Shown here one piece after another: positions 7,384-44,661 of a stretch of 64,000 nt of DNA. Under the pieces are notes generated by a model. That model had not been told where the DNA came from. It saw nothing but the letters and a program-made list of their open reading frames with translations, and ran no database searches. The position numbers and the translations under genes are program-made. Origin of the DNA: Bacteroidota bacterium (GTDB lineage: Bacteria > Bacteroidota > Bacteroidia > Chitinophagales > LD1). The stretch lies in assembly GCA_947479455.1 (NCBI GenBank), contig CANJZE010000019.1, positions 1 through 64,000 of the forward strand, in the 5' to 3' direction. Each line of letters starts with the position of its first letter. The stretch's first letter is position 1.

Positions 7384-7491
7384 CCCCCACCCCCCCTAAA
7401 GGGGGCTTTAATACAAAATACAAAGTCTGCACAAGCAGGCTTTTTTTATTTTGGTATTTCTCAAAGTCCCCTTTAGGGGATTTAGGGGTTG
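7383..7491. repeat. Inverted pair of CCCCTAAAGGGG-type elements
   Basis: A left arm near 7383-7411 (centre CCCCCTAAAGGGGGCTTT) is repeated in inverted orientation at about 7461-7491 (centre AAGTCCCCTTTAGGGG then ATTTAGGGGTTG). The same family recurs, interrupted, at 29667-29720. The element fills the spacer between the MORN gene and rnhB and surrounds a terminator hairpin. Confidence 0.75.
7422..7447 (+). terminator. Rho-independent terminator after the MORN gene
   Basis: AAAGTCTGC, loop ACAA, then GCAGGCTTT and four more T. The nine-pair stem (one G-T pair) and the T tract follow the stop codon at 7383 by about 40 bp. Confidence 0.8.
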
Positions 7492-9931: not shown

Positions 9932-10678
9932 ATGAAGAGCTTACATTTATTTCTGTTGTCTGTTGTCTGTTGTCTGTTTTCAAACGCACAGCTAAATCAA
10001 CTCTCTACAACCCCCGAGAAAAAAGAAACTCGAAACGGCAATAAACAATTCGACAAAGGTATTTACACCGATGCAGAAGCGAGCTACAAAAAAGCGCTCG
10101 ACAAAAAGAACAACATGCCCGAAGCCACTTTCAATTTGGGTGATGCCGTGTATGAACAAAAGCGTTACGATGAAGCCGCAAAACAATTTCAGCTTTCGGC
10201 ACAAACCAATACCGATAAAACCATCAAGGCAAAAGCCTATCACAACCTAGGCAATACTTTTTTAGAACAACAGAAATGGGAAGAAGCGACAAAGGCATAT
10301 AAAGAAGCCTTGAAGAACAATTCAAAAGATGCCGATACGAAATATAATTTAGCTTATGCGAACGCAATGCTGATTCAACAAAGAAATCAAGACAAGCAGA
10401 ACAAAGACAACAAGGATAAAAAGGACGATAAAAAAGATAAGAAAGAAGACAAGCAGGATAAGAACAAAGACGATAAAAATAAAGATCACAACAAGGATCA
10501 GCAATCGAAAAATCAGGATAAAAAAGACCAGCAGCAGAAAGCACAACAACCAAAACTTTCAAAAGAAGAAGCAGAAAAAATGTTACAAGCTTTACAAGGC
10601 GAAGAACAAAAGACCAATCAGAAAATGCAGCAGAAACAAATGAAAGTAGTAAACGTGAAGATTGACAAGGATTGGTAA
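9932..10678 (+). CDS. TPR protein with charged tail, BatC/BatE-like
   Basis: 248 residues. The signal peptide (MKSLHLFLLSVVCCLFSNA) is partly encoded by the 7-bp tandem repeat at 9952-9978. Residues about 30-145 hold three TPR units (YTDAEASYKKALDKKNNMPEA, YDEAAKQFQLSA, WEEATKAYKEALKNN). From about 150 to 215 the sequence is almost only Lys, Asp, Asn and Gln, a low-complexity linker. This architecture matches BatC-like proteins of the Bacteroidota Bat (aerotolerance) operon, but no MoxR or VWA-domain Bat genes are in the window, so the assignment is tentative. Confidence 0.7.
   Translation: MKSLHLFLLSVVCCLFSNAQLNQLSTTPEKKETRNGNKQFDKGIYTDAEASYKKALDKKNNMPEATFNLGDAVYEQKRYDEAAKQFQLSAQTNTDKTIKAKAYHNLGNTFLEQQKWEEATKAYKEALKNNSKDADTKYNLAYANAMLIQQRNQDKQNKDNKDKKDDKKDKKEDKQDKNKDDKNKDHNKDQQSKNQDKKDQQQKAQQPKLSKEEAEKMLQALQGEEQKTNQKMQQKQMKVVNVKIDKDW
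9952..9978 (+). repeat. TCTGTTG tandem 7-mers in a signal-peptide coding region
   Basis: Three exact TCTGTTG units followed by a partial fourth. They encode the hydrophobic core LLSVVCCL of the signal peptide of the TPR protein. A gain or loss of one unit would shift frame. Confidence 0.9.
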
Positions 10679-13413: not shown

Positions 13414-13614
13414 TTATTCGCTACGATACAGTTTTTTAGCCCCGTAAACCAAGCCAGCTGACAACAACATAAAAATACCTCCATCAATAGGAACACCTGA
13501 ACCTGGTGGTGGTGGTGGTGGTGGTGGTGGTGGTGGTCCGCCTTGAGAAAATGCGGCAAAAGCCAATCCCAAAAAAACTGCCGTTAGGGTTATTGATAAG
13601 AATTTATTCTTCAT
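13414..13614 (-). CDS. Small exported protein with PID-CTERM-like sorting tail
   Basis: 66 residues from the second Met (ATG at 13614; an ATG two codons upstream is equally possible). The layout is a signal peptide (MKNKFLSITLTAVFLGLAFA), a run of 11 prolines, then GSGVPIDGG, a hydrophobic helix (IFMLLSAGLVYGAKK) and a basic tail LYRSE. The PIDGG motif plus transmembrane helix plus basic end is the pattern of the PID-CTERM sorting signal seen in Bacteroidota. The processing enzyme is not obvious in this window. The proline run is encoded by 11 identical CCA codons. Confidence 0.75.
   Translation of the reverse strand: MKNKFLSITLTAVFLGLAFAAFSQGGPPPPPPPPPPPGSGVPIDGGIFMLLSAGLVYGAKKLYRSE
13505..13537 (-). 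repeat. Trinucleotide microsatellite, 11 CCA units
   Basis: Eleven exact GGT units on the plus strand, read as CCA (Pro) codons in the PID-CTERM-like gene. Length changes would keep frame and alter only proline number. Confidence 0.95.
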
Positions 13615-19240: not shown

Positions 19241-19750
19241 CTAAATTGGTTTGAATTGTTCAAAACCCTGTTTACACGAAAAGCAAAAACGAATAGCCCT
19301 GCAAAGCGTTGAACCAAATGCAGAGCGCAAAGTGGTATCAGTGCTTTGGCAATACGGACAGCGAACATTATTGAGCTGTTCTTCTGTTAACTCTTCGTCA
19401 TTCAACATAACCGGTGGTGCTAAACCGAATTTTTCCACTTTCACTTTTGCTTCTGGTTTCATTCTGTCACTCGTCCACTTAGTTTCAAAATCAACTTTCA
19501 CTTCTACCTCATCAAAGCCAAGCTTCAAGACTTCTTCGCGGATATTTTTTTTGATGACATCAATTGCTGGGCAACCAACGAAAGTGGGTGTCATTGTAAT
19601 AGAACAAGTCCGAAGTCCGAAGTCCGATAACGGAAGTTGAATGCCTGTAATCATTCCCATATCCACTACAGAAATCACAGGAATCTCCGGGTCTTTCACA
19701 TTTTCGAGTGCAAGCCAAATTTGTTGTTCTGTAATTTCTGTGATTACCAT
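19241..19750 (-). CDS. paaJ: Phenylacetyl-CoA epoxidase subunit PaaD (PaaJ)
   Basis: 169 residues. The N-terminal MIP18/DUF59-like domain shows VKDPEIPVISVVDMGMI and TPTFVGCPAID; the C-terminus has a zinc-ribbon pair, CPYCQS and CFSCKQGF, as in PaaD. PaaD helps assemble or mature the epoxidase complex. A 7-bp tandem repeat (19607-19627) encodes the segment SDFGLRT in the loop before the TITPT-like strand. That segment looks inserted compared with the family's compact loop. The start overlaps the PaaC gene end by seven bases (19744-19750). Confidence 0.9.
   Translation of the reverse strand: MVITEITEQQIWLALENVKDPEIPVISVVDMGMITGIQLPLSDFGLRTCSITMTPTFVGCPAIDVIKKNIREEVLKLGFDEVEVKVDFETKWTSDRMKPEAKVKVEKFGLAPPVMLNDEELTEEQLNNVRCPYCQSTDTTLRSAFGSTLCRAIRFCFSCKQGFEQFKPI
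19607..19627 (-). repeat. Three exact 7-mers inside paaJ
   Basis: AGTCCGA is repeated three times without error inside coding sequence. Three copies make 21 bp, which keeps frame and yields SDFGLRT in the protein. Confidence 0.92.
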
Positions 19751-20508
19751 TCTGCTGTTGCTTCATCGCTTCTGACTACTTCACACATTTCATCTAAAAG
19801 CGGTTTCAGATATTCTGAATGAAACCCTTTTCTACCTCCGTAAACTATTTTGCTTTCATCAGTTGCGGGAATTTTCAGGCTGGCTGCTTCAATAATTGGA
19901 ATTATTTTTTGGAGCCACCGTTTTTTCAGTTCCTCTTCTCCTGCAAAAATATTTTCTGAAATCAAATCGTTTTCAAATTCACTTTTTTCAAAAATGCCAA
20001 GGGCCAAATGCCAGGCATAATTCAAAGAGGTTTGCAAGCGTGCTTTACTTTCTTCTGTTCCGTTGCCGAGTAGTTTTACAAAAGTGTCAGCATGCATGAC
20101 GTGGTATTTTATTTCTCCTTTCACCTTCTTCGCTAATTGCGCTAACGGCTGAAAAGAAGATTGTGTAAGCATATCGTACCTAATCAATTCCGCATGGTCG
20201 AAAAGAAATTGACGAACAATGCTGAAATCGTATTCGCCAATCGGCTGCTCAACTAACTGACAGCATTTGAAATTTTTTTCTTCGCGTTTAAATGCAAGTG
20301 TGTCTGCATCCGCTTCTCCCAAAACATCATTCAAGATTTTGTAGAGTGCTTGTGCATGTCCAATTTTATCTTGCGCCATAGAAGAAAATGCGAGGTCTTC
20401 TTCCAACATTGGACCAATACCAGTCCATTCTGAATTGCGGTGGCCAATGATGAGCGCATCATCTGCCATCTTAAAAAGTAAATCTTTAAGTGCGTTGCTC
20501 ATGTTCAA
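19744..20508 (-). CDS. paaI: Phenylacetyl-CoA epoxidase subunit PaaC (PaaI)
   Basis: 254 residues of the ferritin-like PaaA/PaaC fold. LEEDLAFSSMAQDKIGHAQALYKIL is the first helical motif, HVMHADTFVKLLGNG the second. PaaC is the structural partner of catalytic PaaA in the epoxidase that converts phenylacetyl-CoA to the ring 1,2-epoxide. As in the family, the diiron ligand set is incomplete compared with PaaA. It overlaps the neighbouring genes by a few bases (four with paaH, seven with paaJ), supporting one translationally coupled operon. Confidence 0.92.
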   Translation of the reverse strand: MNMSNALKDLLFKMADDALIIGHRNSEWTGIGPMLEEDLAFSSMAQDKIGHAQALYKILNDVLGEADADTLAFKREEKNFKCCQLVEQPIGEYDFSIVRQFLFDHAELIRYDMLTQSSFQPLAQLAKKVKGEIKYHVMHADTFVKLLGNGTEESKARLQTSLNYAWHLALGIFEKSEFENDLISENIFAGEEELKKRWLQKIIPIIEAASLKIPATDESKIVYGGRKGFHSEYLKPLLDEMCEVVRSDEATAEW

Positions 20509-20867
20509 ACTTTATTCTTGTTTTGAAATTTTTCAATTCTATCTCTTACCTTATAATATGCTGGGTCACGAAAAGTTTTTTCGGGAGTGGTTTCAAACAT
20601 TTCCTCATCTTCTGAACTGAACGTGTAAACATCGCTTGTCTTCACCACCCAAAGGTTGGTAGTCTTTCCTCTTCTGCCAAAAACTTCTTTCGCCATCACT
20701 AACGCCATTTCGGGATTTGATGCGTGAACAATGCCGACATGCGTTACATGTTTTCCTCTTTTCTCCTGATGAAAAACTTCGTAGGTAATTAAATGTGAGT
20801 TTGTCTTTTCAACTTCCGTTGATGTTTCTAAAGACAAACGTTTTATTCTTGGGTCAAGTGTTTCCAT
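20505..20867 (-). CDS. paaH: Phenylacetyl-CoA epoxidase subunit PaaB (PaaH)
   Basis: 120 residues. TYEVFHQEKRGKHVTHVGIVHASNPEMALV and VFGRRGKTTNLWVVKTSDV (cited in part) are the PaaB core, ending KVRDRIEKFQ. PaaB bridges PaaAC units in the complex. It is somewhat longer than the usual 95-residue protein because of about 20 extra N-terminal residues (METLDPRIKRLSLETSTEV). It lies between paaG and paaI and overlaps paaI by four bases. Confidence 0.92.
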   Translation of the reverse strand: METLDPRIKRLSLETSTEVEKTNSHLITYEVFHQEKRGKHVTHVGIVHASNPEMALVMAKEVFGRRGKTTNLWVVKTSDVYTFSSEDEEMFETTPEKTFRDPAYYKVRDRIEKFQNKNKV

Positions 20868-20884: not shown

Positions 20885-21871
20885 TTACGCTAAAGGTGCT
20901 ACATATTTTTCTGTCGGATTCATCAATGCTGCTCGCACCCATCTTCCCGCTTCTTCCGCAAATTTTCTCACAGCAATCCTTTCTGCATTACAAGGACCAG
21001 CACCGTTTATTACCCGTTTGAATTCGTTCCAATCGGGATCGCTGAATTCCCAAATGCCATCGTTGTTCTTTTTTAAATTAGGGTCGGGGAAGGTGATATC
21101 AAGCTCCCAAATTTTAGGAACGTATTGGTCGAGAAACTGATTTCGCATATCGTCATTACTCGCCAATTTCACTTTCCACTTCATTAATTTTTCGCTGTGA
21201 GCGCTCAGTTTATCTGGTGGACCAAAAAAGTGTAACAAGGGAACATACCACCGGTTGATGGCATCCTGCAAAATTGCGCGCTGATGTTTTGTGCCTGTGG
21301 CGAGGTAAACCACGTTATCATGGCCTTGCTTTAAATGAAAACTTTCTTCATAACAAATTCTCTCGAGCGCACGACAATAAGGACCATAACTTCCTTTGCT
21401 ATTAATAACCTGATTTACGATTGCTGCGCCATCCACCAAAAACCCTATCACTGCAATATCGGCCCATGTTTTTGCAGGATAATTAAATACGTTTGAATAT
21501 TTCGATTTACCGTTCAACAAATCGTTCAGCATTTCTTCGCGTGTTTTGCCAAGCGTTTCGGCTGCTGAATAAAGTAATTGACCGTGACCGATTTCGTCCT
21601 GCACTTTTGCAATAAGCGCAAGTTTACGTCTGAAATTGGGTGCACGTGTAATCCACGTTCCCTCAGGCAACGCACCCACAATTTCTGAATGTGCATGCTG
21701 CTCAATCATTCGTATCAACTGCTTGCGGTACTCTATAGGCATCCAATCTTGCGGTTCAATTTTTTCGCCCCGTGCAATGCGCGATTCAAATGCTTCCAAC
21801 TTCTCGGGATCTTCCACCGTGCTGTTCATTCGTTTTGCATCTTCTTCCGATAAGTTTGTGCTTCCGTACAT
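20885..21871 (-). CDS. paaG: Phenylacetyl-CoA epoxidase catalytic subunit PaaA (PaaG)
   Basis: 328 residues. This is the diiron monooxygenase subunit. Helical carboxylate/His motifs are visible: [29 protein letters not shown] and [16 protein letters not shown]. Together with PaaB, PaaC and PaaD it epoxidises the ring of phenylacetyl-CoA, the first committed step of aerobic phenylacetate breakdown. The start ATG 21871 lies four bases after the TetR gene stop, so regulator and enzyme are co-transcribed. No PaaK ligase, PaaE reductase, PaaG/PaaZ hydrolytic enzymes are in the window. Confidence 0.93.
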
Positions 21872-28444: not shown

Positions 28445-29668
28445 ATGCTTGCATTCAGAATAGCATTACGCTACATCTTCTCGAAAAAATCTACCAATGC
28501 CATCAATGTAATTTCGCGTGTTAGCATGTTGGGTATGGGTGTAGGTGCGTTTGCGTTGATTGTTGTGCTCTCGGTGTTCAACGGCTTTGAAGGATTAGTG
28601 CTTTCGCTCTACAATTCCTTTTATCCTGATTTGGAAATTCGTGCTGTGCAGGGAAAAACATTTGAAGATGATTCGCTCTTCCGTTCTAAAATTTTACAGC
28701 TCAACGGCATTGCATCGTTATCGCAAACGCTCGAAGAAAACGCGTATCTCGAATACGGAGAAGAAGCGCAGCTCGCCACCATAAAAGGCGTAGATGAAAA
28801 TTACAATTCGGTTACCACCGTAAAAAATTATGTGCGCGATGGGAAATTTTTACTGCGCGACACTTCGATGAATTACGCAGTGATAGGCGCTAACATCAGC
28901 TATCCGATGAATATAGATGTGAAACGCGGAGCCGAGCCGCTGCGCATTACTGTGCCACGCAAGGGAGTGAAAACCTCCTTCGCGCCAGAAGATGCATTCA
29001 ATACCATGTCGGTTATTCCTTCGGGAGTTTTTTCTATTCAGCAGGAGTTTGATTCCAAATATGTTTTTGTAAATCTGAATTTTGCGCGCGAATTGCTTGG
29101 TGAAGAGAACCGCGTTTCGGCCTATGAAATAAAACTGAAACACGATGCCGATATAGAAGCCACAAAAAAACTACTTGCACAATTAGCCGGAAAAGATTTT
29201 GCAGTGCGAACGCGTTACGAGCAAAAAGCAGAAACCTATCAAGTGATGTTGATTGAGCGGTGGGTGACCACCGCTATTCTCGGTTTTATCATTCTGATTA
29301 TTTCGTTCAACATTATTGGTTCGCTTTCTATGCTTGTTCTCGAAAAATCGAAAGACATTTCCATTTTAAAAGCAATGGGCAGCAATGCGCAGCAGGTAAA
29401 AAAGATTTATCTGCTCAATGGCATGTTGTCTTCGCTCATTGGTGCATTAACGGGTTTGGTGCTCGGTTACGCTGTAGTGTTGCTTCAAATGAAATTTCAT
29501 TTTTTGAAATTAGGCGGAGCCGATTCGAGTTTTGTAATCAATTACTATCCTGTAAAATTAAAATGGCTCGACCCTATTGTTACTATGCTGATTATCGTTT
29601 CAGTGAGTTTACTGGCAGCATATTTTCCCGCGAAGAGAGCGAGCGAAGGAGAGATGAGTTTTAAGTAA
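28445..29668 (+). CDS. Lipoprotein-release ABC permease, LolC/LolE family
   Basis: 407 residues. An N-terminal transmembrane helix (LGMGVGAFALIVVLSVFNGFE) precedes a large extracytoplasmic MacB-like domain (about 60-260), and three C-terminal helices (AILGFIILIISFNIIGSLSML, LLNGMLSSLIGALTGLVLGYAVV, IVTMLIIVSVSLLAAYF) form the FtsX-like domain. The pattern is that of LolC/E, which with ATPase LolD extracts lipoproteins from the inner membrane. LolD is not in the window. The 3' end runs into a nested repeat element at 29667. Confidence 0.87.
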   Translation: MLAFRIALRYIFSKKSTNAINVISRVSMLGMGVGAFALIVVLSVFNGFEGLVLSLYNSFYPDLEIRAVQGKTFEDDSLFRSKILQLNGIASLSQTLEENAYLEYGEEAQLATIKGVDENYNSVTTVKNYVRDGKFLLRDTSMNYAVIGANISYPMNIDVKRGAEPLRITVPRKGVKTSFAPEDAFNTMSVIPSGVFSIQQEFDSKYVFVNLNFARELLGEENRVSAYEIKLKHDADIEATKKLLAQLAGKDFAVRTRYEQKAETYQVMLIERWVTTAILGFIILIISFNIIGSLSMLVLEKSKDISILKAMGSNAQQVKKIYLLNGMLSSLIGALTGLVLGYAVVLLQMKFHFLKLGGADSSFVINYYPVKLKWLDPIVTMLIIVSVSLLAAYFPAKRASEGEMSFK

Positions 29669-29720
29669 ACCCCTAAATCCCCTTCCCGAAAAATCGGGAT
29701 GAAACAAAAGGGAACTTGAA
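29667..29720. repeat. Palindrome nested in a second repeat element
   Basis: AAACCCCTAAATCCCCT (29667-29683) and AAAGGGAACTTGAA (29707-29720) together match the element at 7461-7491 in inverse orientation. TCCCGA-AAAA-TCGGGA plus TGAAACA (29684-29706) sits between them. This looks like one small element inserted into another. Confidence 0.7.
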
Positions 29721-31313: not shown

Positions 31314-31387
31314 GTGTAATTATTTTTATGTGGCTAAGAAAAGGAATTTTTGAGAAGCTGTTGAAGTTAGCTGAACAAAAAACGGTA

Positions 31388-31450
31388 TGTCATGCTGAGC
31401 TTGTCGAAGCACTTTCCTCTTTAAAACCCTTCGACAGGCTCAGGGTGACA
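31388..31450. repeat. Inverted repeat, TGTCATGCTGAGC-type element
   Basis: Left arm 31388-31411 (starts TGTCATGCTGAGCTTGTCG) and right arm 31427-31450 (ends AGGCTCAGGGTGACA) pair over about 19 of 24 positions. The right arm has the widely occurring CCCTTCGACAGGCTCAGGGTGACA sequence pattern, a known dispersed repeat of environmental bacteria. It lies between the T9SS protein and cytochrome genes. Confidence 0.85.
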
Positions 31451-38614: not shown

Positions 38615-41600
38615 ATGCGCAAATTCCTATCCAGCATTTATCTGTTGTCTATTGTTTATTGTCTCTCGTCTCAAGAAACAACTTTCAAAACCAACGGACC
38701 CGATGATTATCGCGAAGGTAAACATGCGTTTACTAACGCAACCATCTATATTTCGTACAATCAAAAAATAGATAGTGCAACACTTTACATTGAAAATGGA
38801 AAGGTGTTGGCTGTTACTCCCTCCCCTTCGGGGAGGGCTGGGGAGGGGCTGGGGGCTGGTTTTATCGTTCATGAAATGCAAGGCAAATTCATCTACCCAA
38901 GTTTCATTGATATTTTTTCTGATTACGGAATGCCAGATGTTCCTAAACCAAAAAATTCTGAAGACCCTCAATTAGAATCAAACATCAAAGGCGCTTATGG
39001 ATGGAATCAAGCCATTCACACCGATTTTCATGCCGATAGAAACTTTACAGTGAATGATGGCAAGGCAGATGAATTGCGCAAAATTGGTTTCGGTGCCGTT
39101 CTTACTAACAAGAAAGACGGCATCGCACGCGGCACAGGTGCGGTGGTAACACTTAATAACGACAAAGAAAATTTTGTACTAGTGAAGCCTGATGCTTCTG
39201 CAAATTATTCTTTCAATAAAGGAAGTTCAACGCAAGATTATCCAAGTTCGTTGATGGGAAGTATCGCGCTCATTCGTCAAACGTATTACGATGCACAGTG
39301 GTATAAGACTTCTATTGATAAAAAAGAGTTCAACATTAATTTGCAAGAGTGGAATTTGGAACAAACTATTCCACAAATTTTTGATGCCGGTGGCGATTGG
39401 CAAAAAGTTTTGCGTGCCGATAAAGTAGGCGATGAGTTTTCGGTTCAATACATCATTAAAGCAAAGGGTGATGAATACAAGCGCGTTGATGAAATAAAAA
39501 AGAGCAATGCAAAAATTATCACGTCATTAAATTTTCCGAAAGCATTTGATGTTGAAGACCCTTATAAGGCTAACTGGGTTTCGCTGGAGGATATGAAGCA
39601 TTGGGAATTGGCACCAACGAATTGCGCAGCATTGGCAAAAGCCGCGATTGATTTTTCGATCACTACTTCTGATTTAGAAAAGAAAGATGACTTCCTTGGT
39701 AACCTTCGCAAAGCGGTGAAATATGGTTTGGATTCTTCCCTCGCGTTGAAGGCGCTCACTTACAATCCTGCATCGTTTATAAATGTGTACGACAAAGTTG
39801 GTTCGCTTGAAGCAGGAAAGCTGGCGAACTTTTTTATTACATCGAAACCATTGTTTGATGAAAAATGCGATCTGAACGAAAACTGGATTCAGGGAACGCG
39901 CTATGAGATAAAAGCATTTGACCAGAAAGATATTCGTGGAGAATATGCTTTAACGGTTGGCAACAACAAATACAAACTAAAATTAAACGGAGAGGCGTCC
40001 TCGTCTAAAGCACAGATTATTTTAAGCGACACAAATAAATTAGACGCGAAGCTTTCTTACAAAAGCAACGATATCTCTCTTTCTTTTTCTGCTGATAAAA
40101 AAGCAGAACAAAGCAAAATTCGTTTAACCGGAACGATTGACTACAACACAAAATCGTGGAGCGGTAATGGTCAGCTTGCTAATGGCGATTGGATAACATG
40201 GAGTGCCACACAAACCAAAGGACCGGAGGCAGATACCACAAAACCTAAAAAAGATTCAGTTGATGTAACGAAGAATTTGGGCAAAGTAATTTTCCCTTTC
40301 CTGGCTTACGGCAATGAGCAAATTCCAACACAAGAAAACTTCTTGATCAAAAACGGAACCGTTTGGACCAACGAGACAGAACATGTTTTGGCAAACACAG
40401 ATGTAATCATTCGTGCAGGTAAAACTTCTTCTATTGGAAAAAATTTAGCCTGTGCCGATTGCAAAACAATTGACGCCACCAATAAATTTGTTACCGCTGG
40501 AATTATTGATGAGCACAATCACATCGCCATTCAAGAAGGTGTGAACGAAGGTACCGAAGCGAGCAGCGCAGAGGTTCGCATTAGCGATGTGGTGAGTTGC
40601 GATGACATTAATATTTACAGGCAGCTTGCCGGTGGAGTTATTGGCGCGCAGTTGTTGCACGGTTCTGCAAATCCTATTGGCGGACAAAGTGCGTTGGTGA
40701 AATTTCGTTGGGGATATACACCGGAGAAAATGAAAATTGAGGGAGCCGATGGCTTCATCAAGTTTGCTCTTGGTGAAAATGTAAAGCAATCTAATTGGGG
40801 CGACCACAATCGTATTCGTTATCCGCAAACGCGCATGGGTGTTGAGCAGACTTATTATAATTATTTTACCAAAGCAAAAGAATATCAGAAACAGTGGGGT
40901 ACTTACAACGCAGCAAAAGTCAAAGGTGTTTCACCGCGAAAAGATATTGAGCTGGATGCGATCTCTGAAATTCTGAACAAGAAAAGATTTATCACTTGTC
41001 ACAGTTATGTGCAGAGTGAAATAAATATGCTGATGCACGTGGCTGATTCATTCAACTTTAAAGTGAACACGTTCACGCATATTTTGGAAGGTTATAAAGT
41101 AGCGGATAAAATGAAGGCGCACGGAGTGAACGCCTCAACCTTTGCTGACTGGTGGGCTTACAAGTATGAAGTGATTGATGCTATTCCGTACAACGCGGCA
41201 ATTCTTACAAAAGTTGGAATCAACACCGCTGTAAATTCTGACGATGCAGAAATGGCGCGCAGATTAAATCAGGAAGCAGCGAAGTCAATTAAGTATGGCG
41301 GACTTACCGAAGAACAAGCATGGAAAATGGTTACACTTAATCCTGCCAAGATGCTTCACCTCGATAAACAAACCGGTTCAATAAAAGTTGGAAAAGATGC
41401 AGACGTTGTAATATGGAGCGCGAACCCGCTTTCTGTTTATGCTAAAGCAGAAAAAACTTTTGTAGATGGAATTTTATTCTTCGACATTGGACGTGATGCA
41501 CAGAAACGCGATGAAATCCGCAAAGAACGCGCACGTTTAATTCAGAAAATGCTCGATGATAAAAAAGGCGGAGGCGGCACACAAGAGCCTTCACCTAAAG

Positions 41601-42970: not shown

Positions 42971-44661
42971 AACTTCACTTCTGCGTCTAAATCCCAGCCG
43001 CCTTTGAGTTGGTAGCTTTCTTTGTAAGTGAATATTTTTTCGGGTTGCTTTTTATTTTTTAAATTTCCCGTATCCCACACTCCGTTTTTATTGGTGTCTT
43101 CAATCACAAGAAATTTATAGCTGCCCGCTAAAATATTTTCTGCACTAACTTTTCTTTCTCCGTTACCGGTTAAGAAAAATTCCTGTACGGTATTGTTGCT
43201 CGCATCAAGCAGCTTTATCACATAATAATTTTCGGGGTGTTGTGTCTTGAGTGTAATGCGCAAATTGCCGTAACTGTTTTTTGCATTTGTAATAAATTTG
43301 TAAACTAGTTTGCTATTCCACTTTCCGAAAATATCCTGCAATGTTGAATCCGGAATTTCTAAACGATATTTTGTATTTTCCTTTTTCTCAAAATCGACAG
43401 CAATGCTCTGTTTTGTTTTTTCTTCCAACACAAATTTCAGTTCCGAATAATTTGTGCTTGAATCTTCGAATAAATGAAGTTGTTTTGTTTCGTTTATACC
43501 GATGCACGGTCGGGTCAAATTTATTTTAATCGCTTTATTAAACTCCTGAAAAGTAAAATCAACCCGTTTAGCAGTGTCTTCTTTGCTTCTATTTGGTTGA
43601 TTTGCAACACCTGACAAAATATTATTCCGCGTGAAGAGAGAATCTTTCTTCACAAATTTCAGTTCCAACCTCGCGGTATCAAGAATGGTATCGTTTGCAC
43701 TGAGAAAGAAGCTGTCTTTTTGAATATAATATTTTGAATACCAGTATATTATGGTATCATTGGTGGGGTAAATATACGCAAAGTCTTCCTTCGACAATCC
43801 TTTCCAGTCCAGTTTAAAATTTGATATAGGTCTATTATAACTAATTTTTAGTTGACCCGGACTTAAAGACTTAACCATATCTAATTGCGCCTTCCTTTTA
43901 TTTTCATCAAACAAAAAAAGCTTGACTTCATCGTTTACCGAATCGGTCAAGTCAAGAATCGAATCTGAAAAGGCGATTAGCTCGTTTGGCTGGTCGTAGA
44001 TGTAATTATAGTTCTGGTCTTTGAGCGCATAAACCAAATATTTGCCCGATTTGATATTTTCAATTTTAAACTGCCCCGATTTATCTGTCTTGGCAAAGTA
44101 AAATGGTTTTGATTTCAGAATTCCATTTACTGAATCCTGCGGATAAAGAGATACCACGATACCTTCTTGGTTTGTATTGTCCTTCGCCAGCACCACTGAG
44201 CCAGATACTTTCTGCGAATCTATGAAATCACCAGTAGAAAAGACATAGGTCAAGTTACTAGCCGTGTTTCCTTCGTTTAAATCCTTTACATCATCAGCAA
44301 AGTTGATGGTGTAAGTGGTGCTGTCGCGCAGCGGGCTCTTTAATTTTATGGTAAGCGTTCGGCCTTCGACATGAAATTCGGGTTTTTTGTCTTGTGGAGG
44401 AGAGATAAGCGTTTGTGTAAATCCTCCATCCTTTAAAAATTCGTTGAAGGTTATTTTTACTTGCGTGCTGGTGAAACGAAGCGATTTATTGGGAGGTGAA
44501 ATCTTTTTTGCTTCAGGTGGTTTTTCATCTTTCTTTCCTCCGGTAGGAACACTTTCGTTAGCGCAGCCGAATTGTATAAGGGCAACAACGACCATTATAA
44601 CTATCGAGATTGCTCTTCTGAGGTTGAATTGATAATTGATAGTTGATAATTGATAACTCAT
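42967..44661 (-). CDS. Ig-like domain lipoprotein
   Basis: 564 residues. The N-terminal n-region (MSYQLSTINYQFNLRR) is encoded by a 7-bp tandem repeat; the hydrophobic stretch and Cys (ALIQFGCANES) make a lipoprotein signal, with a non-standard QFG before Cys. The first module (LRFTSTQVKITFNEFLKDGG and DSTTYTINFADDVKD) is a bacterial Ig-like SbsA/Big_5-like domain. Later beta-rich modules include a carboxypeptidase-regulatory-like strand set (GQFKIENIKSGKYLVYALKD). Role unknown. It is three bases past the mnmG stop and is likely co-transcribed with mnmG. Confidence 0.75.
   Translation of the reverse strand: MSYQLSTINYQFNLRRAISIVIMVVVALIQFGCANESVPTGGKKDEKPPEAKKISPPNKSLRFTSTQVKITFNEFLKDGGFTQTLISPPQDKKPEFHVEGRTLTIKLKSPLRDSTTYTINFADDVKDLNEGNTASNLTYVFSTGDFIDSQKVSGSVVLAKDNTNQEGIVVSLYPQDSVNGILKSKPFYFAKTDKSGQFKIENIKSGKYLVYALKDQNYNYIYDQPNELIAFSDSILDLTDSVNDEVKLFLFDENKRKAQLDMVKSLSPGQLKISYNRPISNFKLDWKGLSKEDFAYIYPTNDTIIYWYSKYYIQKDSFFLSANDTILDTARLELKFVKKDSLFTRNNILSGVANQPNRSKEDTAKRVDFTFQEFNKAIKINLTRPCIGINETKQLHLFEDSSTNYSELKFVLEEKTKQSIAVDFEKKENTKYRLEIPDSTLQDIFGKWNSKLVYKFITNAKNSYGNLRITLKTQHPENYYVIKLLDASNNTVQEFFLTGNGERKVSAENILAGSYKFLVIEDTNKNGVWDTGNLKNKKQPEKIFTYKESYQLKGGWDLDAEVKF
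44629..44656 (-). repeat. TTGATAA 7-mers at the start of a gene
   Basis: Four units (TTGATAA, TTGATAG, TTGATAA, TTGATAA) at the 5' end of the Ig-like lipoprotein gene. They encode residues 3-11 (YQLSTINYQ) before the signal helix. Confidence 0.88.

Follow-up and report, generated by a model that had tools for sequence, protein, structure and literature searches.

The perfect triple heptamer inside paaD is most probably (about 0.7) one of the sites occupied by a family of dispersed, homogenized heptamer micro-repeats, which is tolerated and is spreading in an uncultured clade of the Bacteroidota. The genome-wide AGTCCGA family to which the array belongs merits study in its own right. The array lies in the window, the whole stretch of 64,000 nucleotides that was analyzed.

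The array in paaD and its loop

Positions 19607-19627 read AGTCCGAAGTCCGAAGTCCGA exactly, three copies of AGTCCGA on the plus strand without a mismatch, as an earlier note on this DNA had reported; on the coding (minus) strand of paaD the unit reads TCGGACT. Tandem Repeats Finder, applied to the window, placed the array at 19606-19627 (period 7, 3.1 copies, 100% matches), starting one position earlier because one extra A precedes the array. The 14-mer formed by the AGTCCGA doublet was matched 0.00 times on average over 100 dinucleotide shuffles of the window; the triple heptamer is beyond chance expectation. The array and the genes around it are as follows.

19607-19627, minus strand: perfect heptamer array (TCGGACT)x3 (AGTCCGA on the plus strand), encoding SDFGLRT; exact match, Tandem Repeats Finder and shuffles.
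19241-19750, minus strand: paaD, host of the array, 1,2-phenylacetyl-CoA epoxidase subunit PaaD, 169 aa; TIGR02159, PF01883 and PF23451.
19744-20508, minus strand: paaC, neighbor in the paa operon; TIGR02158, 232.7 bits, above the cut-off.
20505-20867, minus strand: paaB-like neighbor; TIGR02157, 75.1 bits, below the cut-off of 85.45.
20885-21871, minus strand: paaA, neighbor; TIGR02156, 446.8 bits, above the cut-off.

PaaD was identified by TIGR02159 at 156.9 bits, above the curated cut-off of 108.15 (E = 4e-46), and its Pfam matches are FeS_assembly_P and Zn_ribbon_PaaD. The earlier note used paaJ in its title and PaaD in its text, presumably two names of one gene, which NCBIfam calls PaaD. 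The three copies amount to 21 nt, or seven codons, and so keep the frame, as had been stated; they encode SDFGLRT, residues 42-48 of PaaD, upstream of CSITMTPTFVGCP. The proposed position in a loop agrees with an AlphaFold2 model (mean pLDDT 73.4, about 80 over the loop), in which the array falls between strands E34-38 and E47-53 and occupies the tip of a predicted beta-hairpin.

Alignment of 30 PaaD loops confirmed that the segment is lineage-specific, SDFGLRT being not conserved in the other PaaD proteins. A score of at least 12 of 14 at lag 7 was reached by the loops of six of the 30 orthologues, with five different words:

G000 (the genome of the window): TCGGACT.
G004: TTCGGAC (the TCGGACT word, with one variant unit).
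G015: TTCAGAC.
G012: ACAACAG.
G008: GTCGGAT.
G029: TCACGTC/TCATGTC.

The same tip thus carries other words in orthologues (TCAGACT, CAACAGA, TCGGATG, TCACGTC), or the array is absent. Three further loops look like decayed arrays (G001, G013 and G027, score 10-11), and the remaining 21 score 9 or less; at lags 5, 6, 8 and 9 none of the 30 loops scored above 10. The PaaD loops of 24 named loci are identical to 24 of the 30 and added no independent data. Despite the differing words, the loop is 75 nt long in eight of the nine cases with a clear or decayed array; array-free loops mostly measure 60-66 nt, and two of them also 75 nt. The comparison does not show a clean 21-bp insertion. Because the difference from most array-free loops is 9-15 nt and not 21, the loop appears to have been rewritten rather than simply interrupted. 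No clean empty site bearing a target duplication came to light. On a tree built from MutL without its linker, the state of the paaD array needs at least three changes, forced by the starred branches.

Heptamers in the genome and in its relatives

In the 3.76 Mb genome (G000) the doublet AGTCCGAAGTCCGA is found 39 times, spread over 19 sites, and its reversed control 0 times; tandem arrays of one heptamer at many unrelated sites are what defines a dispersed heptamer. The perfect arrays at these sites have two to six copies (14-42 bp). At 16 sites the array is in frame within an ORF; the 15 ORFs concerned are 169-671 aa long, and each has a Pfam match: GDSL lipase, Thioredox_DsbH, RsmF, MazG, MutL, TsaE, LipB-like ligase, E1 dehydrogenase, epimerase, PaaD, GldD, RimP, asparaginase, a glycosyltransferase carrying two arrays and a second glycosyltransferase. 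No long ORF was found at the other three sites (L014, L026 and L073). The doublet is carried by six of 60 genomes, own genome and relatives together (G000, G001, G004, G009, G010 and G015), which all belong to one genus. In the five relatives each of the 25 sites falls within an ORF of 181 aa or more, these ORFs including dihydroorotate dehydrogenase, PrmC-like methyltransferase and NAD synthase; in these ORF counts, arrays at ORF starts (L001, L070, L078, L279) may sit in leaders, as the starts given by the home-made gene caller are approximate. G000 and G015, which are separate assemblies, have five orthologous arrays in common, and chance or artefact was rejected on this ground; the number of perfect copies is equal in four of the five pairs.

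Among 395 genomes of the phylum searched with the 21-mer, matches were obtained in G000 and G268 only. G268, a member of the Bacteroidota outside the order of the window, had 22 matches of (AGTCCGA)x3; at the two loci read (L265, L273) the array stands in similar leader regions of long ORFs, so that the number may stem from gene duplication. The reversed control word (AGCCTGA)x3, with 69 matches in G377 and three in G291, is another high-copy heptamer.

Heptamers as a class were examined in a 464 kb sample consisting of the window and 20 stretches of 20 kb. Exact lag-7 runs of at least 10 matches numbered 26, versus 1.0 in simulation. The next period was 6, with 10 observed, and none of the other periods exceeded 10; only period 7 stands out as strongly enriched in the sample. 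The 26 exact arrays comprise about 20 canonical words, of which AGTCCGA, seen four times, is the most frequent. A tolerant scan picked up 36 lag-7 segments and 15 at the double period, lag 14, with 0-7 at lags 4-6 and 8-13. In samples of 60-100 kb from nine relatives, lag-7 runs numbered six in G015, seven in G017 and two apiece in G009 and G007; each of the five genomes from other genera and families had 0-1, which makes the class strongest in the clade of close relatives.

Other words are dispersed as well. Doublets of GAAATAC were present in eight of the 18 genomes of the genus (reversed control: one hit, in G001) and those of CATCGGA in seven (reversed control: 0). Imperfect mosaics of 22-24 nt recur, with the same imperfections, at unrelated loci. 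The flanks of AGTCCGA sites are enriched in other heptamer words, and the k-mers shared between flanks are mostly such words. Three further heptamer arrays of the window are the following.

9952-9978, no strand assigned: (TCTGTTG)x3.9, equivalent to CAACAGA, also the word of the G012 paaD loop; Tandem Repeats Finder and repeat scans.
38641-38664, no strand assigned: imperfect heptamer mosaic TGTTGTCTATTGTTTATTGTCT (38643-38664), the 22-mer of which is also found on another contig; Tandem Repeats Finder.
44627-44656, no strand assigned: (AATTGAT)x4.3, between two called genes; Tandem Repeats Finder and tolerant scan.

Repeats of other kinds were also observed. At 31387-31411 of the window lies a dispersed repeat whose core is CTTCGACAAGCTCAGC/G, with TGACA at one end; further copies are at L101 5606-5632, L102 12807-12832 and 17851-17916, L108 11113-11134 and L090 4899-4921. 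Dispersed GTCCCCTTTAGGGGATTTAGGGGTT repeats are found at 7466-7490 and 29665-29683 of the window, L103 16112-16138 and L107 5154-5183. A perfect (TGG)x11.3 trinucleotide run occupies 13504-13537, between two called genes, and a perfect 2.1-copy 16-mer at 861-894 is an octamer-like GTGTTTAC repeat.

The preference for genes is special to the AGTCCGA word. Its own-genome sites lie in ORFs in 16 of 19 cases, versus 12 of 32 in CDSs for other words (p = 0.0015, the two criteria being slightly different); with the relatives included the figure is 41 of 44 versus the same 12 of 32 (p = 3e-7, again by two different criteria and with orthologous sites counted repeatedly). All heptamer words together are under-represented in CDSs, with 16 of 36 in called genes compared with about 89% coding sequence. 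Avoidance of stop codons was considered as the cause of coding residence and rejected: stop-free words are not significantly commoner in genes (14/16 inside, 17/20 outside), and reading-frame tolerance alone is therefore insufficient. Words open in all six frames numbered 5 of 16 in genes versus 2 of 20 outside (p = 0.20). About 37% of heptamers are expected to be open in all six frames at the given base composition, so that openness is no rarity.

MutL, TsaE and LipB were compared across genomes. The location of MutL is as follows.

L015, 913-2772 (G000:C8:122462-124321): MutL; orthologues L164-L182.

As MutL anchors failed in 19 of 30 rows, the comparison was repeated for 19 genomes, six of which have linkers scoring at least 13 of 14 at lag 7, with words that differ by species. 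Linkers of sister species carry TCGGACT, ACATCGG, and AGTCCGA in the opposite sense. The word differences at this one site in G000, G004, G010 and G016 have the appearance of an ancestral array converted in place, in which case no spread would be needed for them. Some rows lacked anchors in TsaE and LipB, too. The TsaE loop was located by anchors at 18 of 30 loci; among these, four AGTCCGA copies are present only in G000, and the TsaE loop of G017 has another period-7 stretch. LipB contains a composite GAAATAC and TCGGACT insert which the other 10 aligned orthologues (11 rows in all) lack. The 5' end of the long TsaE ORF (L100 9665-9684; L283; L284; G000:C11:29118-29735) overlaps a dispersed repeat, GTTGTTGGTGTTTAGT ... 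CACCAACA, and the true TsaE start is for this reason probably further in.

Origin of the arrays

According to the preferred reading, arrays would grow and homogenize via slippage in 7-nt steps, and new sites would be reached by some copying process, either ectopic template switching or conversion. An array would survive in a CDS where its total length keeps the frame and its peptide falls in a surface loop that tolerates it, like the hairpin tip of PaaD. The copy number of a coding array would be frame-locked, since a single-unit change would destroy the protein, with the word still free to change; such locking fits the equal copy number in four of five orthologous arrays. A function in phenylacetate metabolism would not be needed. 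Two residences were looked at closely: in PaaD the array lies in a hairpin loop, in MutL in a linker between domains. Words turn over between sister species. Judged by their shared imperfections, the recurring mosaics fit copying of arrays better than independent birth. Counting against the preferred reading are that neither a copying machinery nor a clean empty site came to light, that paaD loops differ by 9-15 nt and not 21, that the coding preference is confined to the AGTCCGA word and not accounted for by frame tolerance, and that some MutL word differences could have arisen without spread.

Reverse transcriptase (RVT_1, PF00078) was considered as the copier and rejected; it is present in 7 of 18 genomes of the genus but in neither of the array-rich G015 and G004, and shows no correlation. 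Ku (PF02735) was found in none of the 18 genomes, the search control being positive only in Bacillus subtilis, and Ku-based capture by non-homologous end joining is consequently unlikely.

A bolder version of the preferred reading is tentative and on balance doubtful. In it, AGTCCGA/TCGGACT, open in all six frames, would be a mobile, protein-compatible micro-repeat, copied genus-wide and in frame into surface loops without a dedicated element and swapped there for other words, with a selfish 7-bp vocabulary driving loop evolution.

Purely local slippage, by which arrays would be born in place from chance 7-nt duplications under a lineage bias to 7-nt steps and without spread between sites, is unlikely. 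The dominance of period 7 with about 20 words in 26 exact arrays, and homogenization in place at MutL, speak for it, as does a polymerase-footprint idea for heptamers in the accessible text of PMC4679880 and PMC4692102. One word at 19 sites with a reversed control of 0, mosaics with common imperfections at unrelated loci, and the recurrence of words across species nevertheless argue for transfer between sites, as in the preferred reading.

The orientation of the arrays bears on a third reading, selection of the peptide SPKSEVR/SDFGLRT as a linker or tag. AGTCCGA is the sense strand at 28 versus five of about 33 distinct coding sites (p = 7e-5; orthology of sites was judged by eye, and L279 is possibly the orthologue of L001, which would give 27:5), and the majority-orientation peptide is the more hydrophilic (mean hydropathy -1.56 vs -0.47). 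Both observations are consistent with a useful peptide, but paaD is one of the five coding sites with the rarer orientation, there is turnover of arrays between sister species, and purifying selection alone also yields a hydrophilic bias; this reading is accordingly held to be very improbable. Either purifying selection in favor of a hydrophilic peptide or a copying step with a strand preference would account for the orientation bias.

The earlier suggestion that 7-bp slippage in paaD toggles phenylacetate use could draw on the identity of the copies and on a unit in the CDS that is not a multiple of three, a one-unit change of which would inactivate PaaD; it is rejected as scarcely credible, since the array has only three units, the same perfect arrays occur in MutL, TsaE, LipB, RimP, RsmF and other unrelated genes, and copy number in G000 and G015 is mostly equal, as given above. 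Array-bearing genes such as these five, which we take to be essential, are not the dispensable, switch-worthy genes to which a contingency repeat would be confined. A perfect out-of-frame repeat in a gene need not be a phase switch. A mutator switch in MutL is imaginable, because a one-unit slip in the linker would frameshift the C-terminal domain, and is more worth testing than a switch in paaD.

Comparison with known systems

The heptamers of Calothrix and the GGGNATC-type repeats of Xanthomonas and Nostoc are G-rich and over-represented in non-coding DNA, according to the accessible text of PMC4692102. Like these, AGTCCGA is tandem with at least two units, scattered over the genome and variable in unit number and sequence; unlike them, as there described, it is mostly inside genes and lacks G-tracts. 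The available part of PMC4679880 reports TAACTGA direct repeats from Beggiatoaceae, Cyanobacteria and five Bacteroidetes, the sets of the BOGUAY genome having 2-6 units; the repeats are mostly just upstream of start codons, have stops in all forward frames and are peripheral when in ORFs. AGTCCGA shares with them the dispersed arrays mixed with other heptamers, also in Bacteroidetes, but differs from what is described there by lying chiefly in frame within genes. Rickettsia palindromic elements (RPE), in the portion available of the review PMC10969869, are palindromic, about 150 bp long and inserted in frame in unrelated metabolic genes. AGTCCGA arrays are likewise in frame in unrelated genes, but with a 7-bp unit and perfect arrays of 14-42 bp they do not match the palindrome of about 150 bp described there, and no shared palindrome was seen in their flanks. 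With phase-variable simple sequence repeats (contingency loci) AGTCCGA has in common an out-of-frame tandem unit within a CDS, but it is spread over housekeeping genes and gives no sign of copy-number switching between G000 and G015.

No report of in-frame heptamer arrays in coding genes of Bacteroidota was found in the literature searched, most subscription journals being outside it. Tandem bacterial heptamers are usually described as intergenic and regulatory; AGTCCGA resides chiefly in genes, in loops that differ between sister species. It lends itself to studying by what route 7-bp repeats spread when no transposase carries them, and how conserved proteins acquire new loop sequence. The AGTCCGA case is a variant of dispersed heptamer arrays, RPE-like in residence and heptameric in build, and it is classed with these because it is built of heptamers and fails the size and palindrome test of the RPE. 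Location mainly between genes is a trait of the described heptamer families rather than a strict definition, and with 16 of 19 sites in ORFs AGTCCGA departs from it. Dispersed bacterial heptamers, described as mainly intergenic, are thus known; the in-frame coding habit is new.
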